Shown: one piece after another, positions 31,267-34,668 of the stretch
Layout: each line of letters starts with the position of its first letter
Numbering within the stretch: the stretch's first letter is position 1
From: Candidatus Giovannonibacteria bacterium
GTDB taxonomy: Bacteria > Patescibacteriota > Minisyncoccia > JACPKW01 > UBA11713
Reading direction: 5' to 3'
Assembly (NCBI GenBank): GCA_023266875.1
Contig: JAHFOJ010000006.1
Location: 1-39,958 of the forward strand
Length of the DNA: 39,958 nt
Translations under genes and position numbers: made by a program
The notes under the pieces: model-generated
What the model saw: the letters and a program-made list of their open reading frames with translations, nothing else
Database searches by the model: none
Told to the model about the DNA's origin: nothing

Positions 31267-31956
31267 TCAGCGTTGCCCGGAAAACTGTGCTCCATGTTTT
31301 TTCAAATACGGCACTTCTGCTTTTGAGCTCAATTGCCGGAAACAAATCGAAGAAAATGGAAATCCCGGATAAGCGTTGAAGCTCAACCGCGAATTATTTT
31401 TAATTTCCATAACAGGATAGCCGCACCATCCTGCATGAAAGACCGGAGATGAAACGTGTGATGTAAGGCCATCGCGGGCAACCCTGGAACGCCCCCCCAT
31501 CTCCATTTGCAAGTCATATGGGATACAGACAAGGTTATGCGTGTGCACAAGGATCAACATATCAGGTTGAATCTCGATGGTTTCGTCATCGCCGATGAAG
31601 AACTTCATTCTTGATTCATCTTCAGTCATGACTTTCCTTGTATGCTCGAGGCGGTTTACAGATTTATTTCGATAGTCTTTTGTTAGTCTTCTAATGACTC
31701 GCCGCCCATTAATAGAAACAACTTCGAGCATGGTATCAACCACCTCGATAATGTTCCCAAATTGCAAATCAACAGTGTCGGCGTCAAAAGCTTCCGGTGG
31801 CGGCATAGGTTCGATGATTATCTTGCCGCTATCGAGCGCTTTGTCGAGCTTACGTGGAATATCTTGCCGTGCCAGTCTTTCCAAAAAGTCAGCTTTTAGA
31901 CCTATCTCTTTTACTGTTACCAGCCTTTTTTTAAAATCTCTGTCCGATAGAATCAT
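31267..31956 (-). CDS. dcd: dCTP deaminase family protein
   Basis: 229 residues of the dUTPase/dCTP deaminase fold: MILSDRDFKKRL start, GGRSRVARDGLTSHVS, HAGWCGYPVMEIKNNS and CFRQLSSKAEVPY. Compared with E. coli Dcd as I recall it, the active-site Ser111 and Arg115 (GRSRVAR) and catalytic Glu138 (VMEIKN) are conserved. Expected reaction: dCTP to dUTP, or to dUMP if bifunctional. Longer than E. coli Dcd (193) in the N-terminal half, and ends at FSGQR without the usual C-terminal tail. SD GGAAGGAG; promoter shared region with the TS operon. Confidence 0.8.
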   Translation of the reverse strand: MILSDRDFKKRLVTVKEIGLKADFLERLARQDIPRKLDKALDSGKIIIEPMPPPEAFDADTVDLQFGNIIEVVDTMLEVVSINGRRVIRRLTKDYRNKSVNRLEHTRKVMTEDESRMKFFIGDDETIEIQPDMLILVHTHNLVCIPYDLQMEMGGRSRVARDGLTSHVSSPVFHAGWCGYPVMEIKNNSRLSFNAYPGFPFSSICFRQLSSKAEVPYLKKHGAQFSGQR

Positions 31957-32094: not shown

Positions 32095-32487
32095 ATGGAA
32101 GCTCTTTTACATGAGGCGAGAACATTGTCTATTGTTCAAGTTACTCCGCTTGAGCGTATTTATGTTTCCGAGGAGTGGGGTTTTAACGTTGATGAATTGC
32201 CAAAGGCAGTTTGCTTTTGCGGGACATGCCGAAGCCCGATGGAGAGATTTTCTGCAGATCCTATAAATGTGGTCATATTCTGCAAGAAATGCGGTCTACG
32301 GTTTTTTTTTCCTAACTTCGTTACCTTTAAAGAGATATTGGAGGTAACAAGTCTGAGGGGGTTTCAAGTTTTGTCGCGCGGTATTTGTGGACGCTGTTTT
32401 GGCAGCAAACAGATTCAAATTGAAACGTCTGTTGGAAGCGGCGCGAAAAGAGTAGAATTTGTGTCTTGCCCGCAGTGCAGTCATTAA
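32095..32487 (+). CDS. Zinc-ribbon hypothetical protein
   Basis: 130 residues with two probable zinc sites: CFCGTC (near 41-46) with CKKC (near 64-67), and CGRC (near 99) with CPQC at the C-terminus. No enzyme motif recognised. Strong purine-rich Shine-Dalgarno GAAAGGGGG. It is the first gene of the operon with the thymidylate synthase fusion (31-nt gap), so it may assist that enzyme or regulate the operon; this is inferred from context only. Confidence 0.65.
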   Translation: MEALLHEARTLSIVQVTPLERIYVSEEWGFNVDELPKAVCFCGTCRSPMERFSADPINVVIFCKKCGLRFFFPNFVTFKEILEVTSLRGFQVLSRGICGRCFGSKQIQIETSVGSGAKRVEFVSCPQCSH

Positions 32488-32518
32488 TTTCCGAAATTTA
32501 ACTGAAAGGTGGTGTAAA

Positions 32519-34051
32519 GTGGTCGAAATCAAGTGGCCTGTTTATGAAGCGAATCAAATTGCTATCGGGAATCTAAATAGTTCCGTGGCAATTACTACGC
32601 TTTGGACAAATCGCGATGCCATAACATCACAGGTTCCTTCAGATTTATATTGTGCGGTTGGCACGCTATATAATCGTAAAGTCGGCATTGACCCACTTAT
32701 ACGAAATCTGCTCGCGCGTCCCCAGATTCGCTGTTTGATAATCTGCGGGCATGATCGTGGCAGGAGCGGGGAGGCGCTCATCTCATTTTTCACTCACGGC
32801 TTTGAGCGCGGTACCGATGGGAACGGAAATCCCAAGTGGATGATCCGTTTATCTGATGGTGAGTATGGCTTGATCGACATCGAGGTAAGTGAAGAAGCGC
32901 TTATCCGCTTGAAAAACAACGTTACACTTATTGATCTGCGTGGCGCCGAGAAAGAAAACCTAATTTTGGTGCTTAAAAAATGGGAAGGTTGTGAAAACCT
33001 ACCATACAGCTTGCCGATAATTTTTCCAAAGATTGTTCCGAGCGCGTCCATGCTTCCATCTCCTGACACGGCGAGGATTTTTCGCTCGCCGACAGTCGTT
33101 GGAGCTTGGCTACAGGCGATCAAAGAGATTAGACGCTTTGGGACGGTTAGCAAAACGCACTATAATCCTGCACAAGAGATTATTAATATCACGACTGTGA
33201 TAACCGAGGAAGATCCTGAGAAGTTTTTTGTGCCCGATTGGTTGCCGATTGGAATAAAAGAAATCGAGGCGTATTGCGAGCAAGTGCTGACACCAATTCT
33301 TTCTCCCGGCGTCCGTTACGGATATGGGAATCGTATCTTTGCATATTTCGGCTATGACCAGTTGGAAACCTCAATACGGAAACTTGCCGAAGATTTGGAT
33401 ACAAAGAGCGCGGTTATCAGCATCTGGGATCCGCAGAAAGATATAGGCGATCTGGTAACCCCAAAATCACCTTGCGTAAATGGAATCTGGGCGAGACTGC
33501 GCGATGGGAAGCTGTATTTTGTTGTGCACATTCGCTCAAACGATATTGGCGAGGCGTATCTTGGAAATGGTTTTGCGTTGCGGCGGCTTCAGGCGCATGC
33601 TCTCCAGCTTCTAAGTAATTTTACTGGGGATGCAGGCTTGAAGTTAGGCGATCTCACAATTAATTCCTATTCCGCGCATCTCTATGAGTCGAGTTGGATG
33701 AGTGTTGATGAGACTGTGACAGGGCACTTTAAGGAGGTAATGCGGGGCGCTTCGATAAGAAAAGATCCATACGGATCTTTTAGGATAACCGTAGATAAAT
33801 CTGAAATCGTTGTAACACAACTCTCTACAAATGAAGAACCTTTATCAGATTCCTATCGCGGCAAGACAGCGCTTCAGCTCGCGACAAAAATTGCGGATGA
33901 GGGGATTATTTCAGAACCCTACCATGCCATTTATCTCGGCCGAGAACTCGAGAAAGCTGAAATGGCAATTCGTTTTGGCATTGACTATGTTCAAGACAGT
34001 CCTTTATTTTCGGTGCACGGCCCCAAACCGCGCATCATGTTCGATAAATAG
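32519..34051 (+). CDS. MtrA-like domain fused to archaeal-type thymidylate synthase
   Basis: 510 residues from GTG 32519, chosen for SD GAAAGGTGG. N-terminal part (about 1-180): WPVYEANQIAIGNLNSSVAITTLW, IDPLIRNLLARPQIRCLIICGHDRGRSGEAL, a pattern matching tetrahydromethanopterin methyltransferase subunit A (MtrA/DUF4346). C-terminal part (about 230-510): YGYGNRIFAYFGYDQLE, candidate catalytic Cys319 in SPCVNGIWARLRDGKLYF and HIRSNDIGEAYLGN, the thymidylate synthase C and RS.D motifs, closer to archaeal ThyA than to E. coli. Expected reaction: methylation of dUMP to dTMP. Cobamide or pterin binding by the N-terminal domain is untested. Confidence 0.78.
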   Translation: MVEIKWPVYEANQIAIGNLNSSVAITTLWTNRDAITSQVPSDLYCAVGTLYNRKVGIDPLIRNLLARPQIRCLIICGHDRGRSGEALISFFTHGFERGTDGNGNPKWMIRLSDGEYGLIDIEVSEEALIRLKNNVTLIDLRGAEKENLILVLKKWEGCENLPYSLPIIFPKIVPSASMLPSPDTARIFRSPTVVGAWLQAIKEIRRFGTVSKTHYNPAQEIINITTVITEEDPEKFFVPDWLPIGIKEIEAYCEQVLTPILSPGVRYGYGNRIFAYFGYDQLETSIRKLAEDLDTKSAVISIWDPQKDIGDLVTPKSPCVNGIWARLRDGKLYFVVHIRSNDIGEAYLGNGFALRRLQAHALQLLSNFTGDAGLKLGDLTINSYSAHLYESSWMSVDETVTGHFKEVMRGASIRKDPYGSFRITVDKSEIVVTQLSTNEEPLSDSYRGKTALQLATKIADEGIISEPYHAIYLGRELEKAEMAIRFGIDYVQDSPLFSVHGPKPRIMFDK

Positions 34052-34096: not shown

Positions 34097-34128
34097 AAGG
34101 CGAGTTGTGTGTTAATCTTAGTTTTAAT

Positions 34129-34668
34129 ATGATTCTTGGTGCTGCAGAAATATTGCGCTTGGTAAAAGAAAAAAGACTTGTTGAAAATTTATCTGAGCGG
34201 GAGCTGACCAGTCCAGAAGGCGCCGGTTTTGATTTGCGACTTGCACGCCTTTTTCGCCTAAAAGGGCAGGGATTTCTTGGGATTACGGAGCGCCAAACTC
34301 CTGATGTTGAATTGGCGGCGGAATATAATCCGGACAAGACGCAATCGATTGTTATCAAACCGGGAGAATATTTTTTGACAGAGACTATCGAAAAATTAAA
34401 TATTCCTCTCGATCTGCTCGGCATCGTAAAGCCGCGGACAACCCTTCACAGATCAGGAATTATCACGAGAGTTTCAATAGCGGATCCGGGATATTCCGGT
34501 TCATTGCATCCAGGGATTTATAATGCGGGGGGTGTCCCGATTGAAATCGAGCTTGGCGCGCGTTATGTTAATATAATGTTTTTTGAAGTAAAAGGCGGCG
34601 GCGCGCAATACCGCGGCCAATGGCAAGGCGGTAGAATTAAGACAGATGGAAAAGAAGTTCAAGTTTAA
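34129..34668 (+). CDS. dCTP deaminase/dUTPase-fold protein
   Basis: 179 residues from ATG 34129 (MILGAAEIL); an upstream in-frame ATG is less likely. Superfamily motifs: GIVKPRTTLHRSGI, VSIADPGYSGSLHPGIYNAGG, ARYVNIMFFEV and AQYRGQWQGGR. Relative to E. coli Dcd, Ser111 becomes Thr, Arg115 is kept and the catalytic Glu138 position appears to be Gly (SGSLHPGIYN). It may therefore be a dUTPase, an altered deaminase or a non-catalytic paralogue. Two nt before secD. Confidence 0.72.
   Translation: MILGAAEILRLVKEKRLVENLSERELTSPEGAGFDLRLARLFRLKGQGFLGITERQTPDVELAAEYNPDKTQSIVIKPGEYFLTETIEKLNIPLDLLGIVKPRTTLHRSGIITRVSIADPGYSGSLHPGIYNAGGVPIEIELGARYVNIMFFEVKGGGAQYRGQWQGGRIKTDGKEVQV

Follow-up and report, generated by a model that had tools for sequence, protein, structure and literature searches.

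We describe here a thymidylate synthase (TS) whose methanogen-type catalytic core is carried between an MtrA-like domain and a DUF4346 domain, and we propose, giving the proposal an even chance of being correct, that it makes dTMP independently of dihydrofolate reductase (DHFR), the accessory domains handling the one-carbon donor. The gene lies in a stretch of 39,958 nucleotides (the window). Its source genome, assembled as 25 contigs with a total of 684 kb and 91.5% completeness, appears to be that of a patescibacterium with Parcubacteria MAGs among its same-class relatives. The encoded protein has three domains in the order MtrA-like, TS and DUF4346 (Table 1), and the fusion is real: the identical order in dozens of other genomes rules out an assembly or gene-calling artefact. 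The initial annotation had described a two-part fusion of MtrA with TS; both halves stand, and its count of two does not, DUF4346 being a third domain. Its MtrA fold was borne out by a Pfam match above the cut-off and by a solved MtrA, found in the PDB with a profile of 27 N-terminal domains (E 6e-20), and the homology of this domain with MtrA is secure. Its archaeal-type TS held as well, given the TIGR03283 match and a tree that places the TS domain sister to the TS of methanogens and Altiarchaeota. Matches to SAKe in the first PDB search were chance ones that summed over weak repeat matches. The AlphaFold model of the full-length protein had a mean pLDDT of 89.5 and a pTM of 0.64, so the packing of the domains is uncertain; the nearest solved structures found by Foldseek were TS and the dCMP and CMP hydroxymethylases. 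Each of the three domains was already known and their fusion appears to be the new element; none of the papers covered by a literature search dealt with a fusion of MtrA to TS or with DUF4346.

Table 1. Features of the fused TS gene and its neighbourhood (positions in the window)
Feature	Position	Strand	Basis and remarks
Fused TS gene	32519..34051	+	Starts at a GTG, with the stop codon as its final three bases; 510 aa; three Pfam domains
Probable ribosome-binding site AAAGGTGG	32505..32512	+	5' of the GTG at 32519; sequence read directly
MtrA-like domain, aa 1-168	32519..33022	+	PF04208, aa 5-149 (Pfam, E 3.8e-8, 33.6 bits, cut-off 25); profile match to MtrA in the PDB; alignments
Methanogen-type TS core, aa 185-412	33071..33754	+	TIGR03283 thy_syn_methano, aa 188-394 (NCBIfam, E 1.7e-32, 112.6 bits, below the cut-off of 174.55); Thymidylat_synt PF00303, aa 266-402 (Pfam, E 6.7e-8); Foldseek
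Catalytic Cys319 codon (Pro-Cys motif)	33473..33475	+	Invariant in 39/39 fusions
Asn350 codon; the residue corresponds to the Asn by which TS discriminates dUMP from dCMP	33566..33568	+	Invariant in 39/39 fusions
DUF4346 domain, aa 415-493	33761..33997	+	PF14251 PterinBD-DUF4346 (Pfam, E 3.2e-19, 69.9 bits, cut-off 29.6, model positions 1-86 of 86)
First dCTP deaminase-like gene, immediately 3' of the fused TS, for dUMP supply	34105..34668	+	PF22769 DCD, E 2.3e-23
Second dCTP deaminase-like gene, upstream	31267..31956	-	PF22769 DCD, E 1.2e-19
Short ORF rich in Cys, immediately 5' of the fused TS gene	32095..32487	+	ORF list

We then asked which folate enzymes accompany this protein. Among 380 Patescibacteria genomes, 19 carried a TS linked to MtrA/DUF4346 (18 fusions, including two broken between contigs, and one split form, G392) and 180 carried another TS. 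A FolA-type search found DHFR in 3 of the 19 carriers, all three matches being weak (31-36 bits), as against 162 of the 180 genomes with another TS; the difference reached p 1e-11 by genome and p 7e-5 by taxonomic family, in a set of incomplete and related genomes of which members of one clade do not count as independent. Weak matches may escape the first-look filter, as the genome G055 differed between two DHFR searches. No DHFR was detected in any of 11 further genomes of carriers and archaea, and the source genome, at 91.5% completeness, yielded no match for DHFR, ThyX or MtrH. Since ThyX occurred in only 1 of 22 carriers, the fused TS is usually the sole TS of its genome. Almost all organisms with thyA need folA (PMC11974145); set beside carriers without DHFR, this makes it the simplest reading that the fused TS releases no dihydropterin. 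Some genomes with a stand-alone archaeal-type TS also go without DHFR, and the trait may therefore belong to the TS lineage and not to the added domains.

In MtrA, the corrinoid subunit of methyl-H4MPT:coenzyme M methyltransferase (PF04208; PDB 5laa and 5l8x), the cobalt is ligated by His84, which Glu54 holds, and the phosphate end of cobalamin is bound by Lys52-N, Thr53, Gly57-O and Asn64 (PMC4915002). The fusion shares this fold and largely keeps the phosphate side of the cobalamin site; it differs from MtrA in the loss of His84 and Glu54 and in coming from a genome without MtrH. Neither residue survives in any of the 39 triple fusions aligned, His84 having been lost through a short deletion, and both are retained in the stand-alone MtrA and MtrA-DUF4346 proteins of the alignment. 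At the positions of Thr53, Gly57 and Asn64, the fusions have Ser or Thr (36/39), Gly56 (39/39) and Asn63 (39/39), the window protein having Asn52 where those 36 have Ser or Thr, and two residues are newly conserved, Tyr51 and Arg62 (38/39 each). A phosphate side kept and new residues conserved despite the loss of Glu54 and His84 make the pocket look like a re-tooled site rather than a decayed one, and the conservation of Tyr51, Ser/Thr52, Arg62 and Asn63 argues that it is used. The same pattern indicates that the MtrA-like domain has been repurposed and is probably not a corrinoid carrier. We rejected His78 of the window protein (in ICGHDRG) as a substitute cobalt ligand, since it falls in a different alignment column from His84, one with His in only 4 of 39 fusions. 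The initial annotation had offered a cobamide role, which is not borne out for the fusion protein, together with an unusual one-carbon donor or a new use of the MtrA fold, an idea that we count as supported; it had also asked that the cobalt-ligand His and the TS Cys be compared in an alignment, in which His84 proved to be lost and Cys319 kept, each in 39 of 39 fusions.

The catalytic set of the TS core is complete in the window protein (Cys319, Arg339, Asp342, Asn350, His387, Tyr389 and Glu220). Across the 39 fusions Arg339 is, like Cys319 and Asn350, invariant, Asp342 is nearly so, and Tyr389 (38), Glu220 (36) and His387 (33) are widely kept; the window protein has Lys-Ser at the two sites where Arg pairs usually serve the dUMP phosphate. 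The dCMP hydroxymethylases have Asp at the position of the dUMP-selecting Asn, and Asn350 would thus mark the use of dUMP, not dCMP. No sequence match was found to the C-terminal part of ThyA, which closes over the folate: the PF00303 alignment stops at about 222-224 of 266 model positions, and it stops likewise in the Altiarchaeota locus L042 and the patescibacterial split locus L121, that is, in all three of the arrangements considered below. This part would accordingly seem to be missing or unrecognisable in each of them. The methanogen-type TS (TIGR03283) shares with the fusion the core, the closest clade of the tree and this missing part; the methanogen proteins are stand-alone, and the window protein differs from them by its score below the family cut-off and its two extra domains.

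In the explanation that we favour, the fused protein would be the thymidylate synthase of its host, of archaeal (methanogen) type, with MtrA-like and DUF4346 modules coming from an archaeal methyl-tetrahydromethanopterin/corrinoid transfer system. From established TS chemistry, Cys319 would add to dUMP and activate its C5 as usual, Asn350 selecting dUMP rather than dCMP. The one-carbon unit would most likely be a methylene-tetrahydropterin, held with the help of the accessory domains, and in the source host CH2-H4F, since SHMT and FolD are present there. No dihydrofolate would be left behind, as the carriers lack DHFR, and the reducing equivalents would come from outside the pterin, as in ThyX. 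The trait proposed to be common to ThyX, the flavin-dependent TS, and the fusion is thus that neither leaves dihydrofolate or needs DHFR; the two families are unrelated and no flavin site was recognised in the fused TS, nor was any redox cofactor site identified in it. The MtrA-like pocket most likely would bind a phosphate-bearing group or dock on the TS active site and would carry no methyl-corrinoid. The distribution of the one-carbon enzymes counts against this explanation as regards the carbon source: SHMT was found in 6 of the 19 carriers (165 of the 180 genomes with another TS), so that 13 lack it, and many lack FolD, which was present in 10 of the 25 genomes searched. If DHFR independence is true, the protein would be an exception to the thyA-folA rule among enzymes of the TS fold, and DUF4346 would gain a place in one-carbon metabolism.

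A less probable reading, which nevertheless deserves serious weight, is that the chemistry is that of an ordinary ThyA. CH2-H4F or CH2-H4MPT would then donate both the carbon and the hydride, the MtrA-like and DUF4346 domains would be structural or oligomerisation pieces that replace the ThyA C-terminus, and the dihydropterin would be recycled by an unrecognised reductase or by a symbiotic host. The TS catalytic residues are all present, among them the Asp with which ThyA contacts folate; SHMT and FolD, encoded close together on one contig of the source genome, provide a source of CH2-H4F; and domain swaps for stability are common. Nearly all carriers, however, lack DHFR, the residues of the MtrA-like pocket are conserved, and MtrA and DUF4346 are repeatedly linked to one-carbon enzymes, of which TS is not the sole one. 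DUF4346 (PF14251) also ends DHPS-like proteins of archaea (L034; TIGR00284); a full-length domain match is common to these tails and to the fusion, in which the domain stands behind TS instead. A PDB profile search gave no match for DUF4346, and Foldseek with the model of a natural MtrA-DUF4346 protein matched only MtrA. In two picocyanobacterial loci (L057 and L080, Cyanobium), a small stand-alone DUF4346 gene overlaps the end of an acetyltransferase-like gene, and a short ORF of a viral contig (L096:3509-3847) has the last DUF4346 helix alone, with 54% identity over 35 residues.

MtrA/DUF4346 and TS are found linked in three different arrangements, and this recurrence speaks for a functional connection. 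Besides the fusion, the Altiarchaeota locus L042 has four consecutive genes for MtrA (with His84 kept), MtrH, TS and DUF4346, and a SHMT-like gene alongside. In the third arrangement, found in five patescibacterial loci (L065, L072, L077, L087 and L121), an MtrA-DUF4346 gene is followed by a separate TS gene, behind a dCTP deaminase; the tree assigns the TS of this split form to a different lineage from the fusion TS. Four archaeal loci (L038, L061, L071 and L081) encode, by translation, MtrA, MtrH, a methionine-synthase core and DUF4346; Pfam confirmed the MtrH and the synthase of L061, and the middle genes of L081 are partly frame-shifted. In Methanosphaera (L127) a methionine-synthase core and Mch flank a TIGR03283 TS, and translation of a Methanocellales MAG (L128) suggests the same arrangement. 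The core methionine synthases (MesA-MesD), predicted to accept methyl groups from corrinoid proteins (PMC7857596), are a parallel in having a catalytic core without the folate part and operons with MtrA, MtrH and DUF4346; their fold and their acceptor, homocysteine, differ from those of TS. A Chloroflexi MAG encodes an MtrA-DUF4346 protein with equivalents of Glu54 and His84 (L060:5194-6285), in a genome without a methanogen-type TS match.

These relatives raise a further reading, which we consider unlikely, in which a methyl group would pass from methyl-H4MPT through MtrH and an MtrA-bound cobamide to C5 of the Cys-activated dUMP, in a TrmA-like reaction with no hydride, the Altiarchaeota operon and the split patescibacterial pair being its carriers and the triple fusions a corrinoid-free descendant. 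The Altiarchaeota order MtrA-MtrH-TS-DUF4346 parallels that of the methionine-synthase operons, whose enzymes are predicted to use methyl groups of corrinoid proteins; the split forms keep His84 and Glu54; and such a route would need no DHFR. Against it, every fusion, the window protein included, lacks these two residues, and MtrH (PF02007) was found neither in the source genome nor in the other patescibacterial and cyanobacterial carriers searched, among them G392 with the split form, the Altiarchaeota being positive; moreover, the Altiarchaeota operon may reflect just a shared H4MPT metabolism. This route would fit the archaeal operon and the split form, not the fusion itself. It is correspondingly doubtful that Altiarchaeota and some Patescibacteria make dTMP from a methyl-corrinoid MtrA or MtrA-DUF4346, a third thymidylate route beside ThyA and ThyX, the triple fusions being a later corrinoid-free derivative that kept the DHFR-free chemistry. 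The fusion, the archaeal operon and the split form, whose corrinoid site is intact, link TS with MtrA and DUF4346, and such compact proteins make the question of the carbon and electron source of archaeal-type TS testable. For methanogen ThyA, prediction of the cofactor is difficult (PMC9012536), and the characterisation of archaeal TS was not followed up (PMC9931769).

Finally, it is very improbable that the protein makes no dTMP in vivo and is a pyrimidine nucleotide hydroxymethylase or a nucleotide-sensing protein on the TS fold, as could be imagined from the CMP and dCMP hydroxymethylases among the nearest structures and from the homologue L030, with its degenerate TS domain between intact flanking domains, because the dUMP-selecting Asn is kept in 39 of 39 fusions, the neighbours are dUMP/dTMP genes and the protein is usually the sole TS of its genome. 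That homologue (L030:5974-7242, in a Proteobacteria MAG), whose MtrA-like and DUF4346 domains flank a TS domain without the Pro-Cys motif, is suggested to be a pseudo-enzyme or to have a new function.

The taxonomic spread, which the initial annotation had named as a check, extends over several phyla and viral contigs. The three-domain protein was found in many Patescibacteria, Nostocales cyanobacteria, Chloroflexota, Woesearchaeota, a Nitrospirae MAG and single MAGs of other phyla. Viral contigs gave five full-length hits, and in L092 the DUF4346 end was not detected. L091 to L095 are IMG/VR contigs classed as viral, of which three (L091, L093 and L094) are similar to the Nostocales form and one (L095) encodes a portal-like protein; a viral fold search returned ordinary viral TS and, among the matches listed, none clearly covering the triple architecture. 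Once stand-alone TS that were divergent and two fusions with long rows (L029 and L095) had been removed from the tree, the other 39 fusion TS domains formed one clade (97/94), joined to the methanogen and Altiarchaeota TS at 99/98. In the first tree, which included those rows, the fusion group took in two stand-alone TS on long branches and was less clean; the placement of L029 and L095 is thus less sure. A transferred archaeal gene had also been suggested: the archaeal affinity of the TS is upheld by its sister position, and an isolated transfer is not, in view of an old, multi-phylum fusion clade with viral contigs. Likewise, a recent transfer into the source genome is unsupported, the branch being long within this old clade. 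An Archaeoglobus genome (G428) has a 487-aa frame with two consecutive TIGR03283 matches (L138:1420-2880), possibly a tandem TS.

Around the fused TS, the gene order read from translation is gyrB, nusG and rplK upstream and secD and secF downstream, and relatives of the source genome encode the same protein (L007 and L021). With two dCTP deaminase-like genes flanking it, the fused TS sits among genes of dUMP supply, and related loci add, by translation, thymidylate kinase, dCMP deaminase and further dCTP deaminases. The small ORF directly upstream is zinc-ribbon-like and matched no Pfam or NCBIfam family above the cut-off. In one carrier (G040), the fused TS is followed at short distance by a thymidylate kinase-like gene and then by ThyX (L004:3690-4433), and this cluster thus brings two unrelated kinds of TS together.
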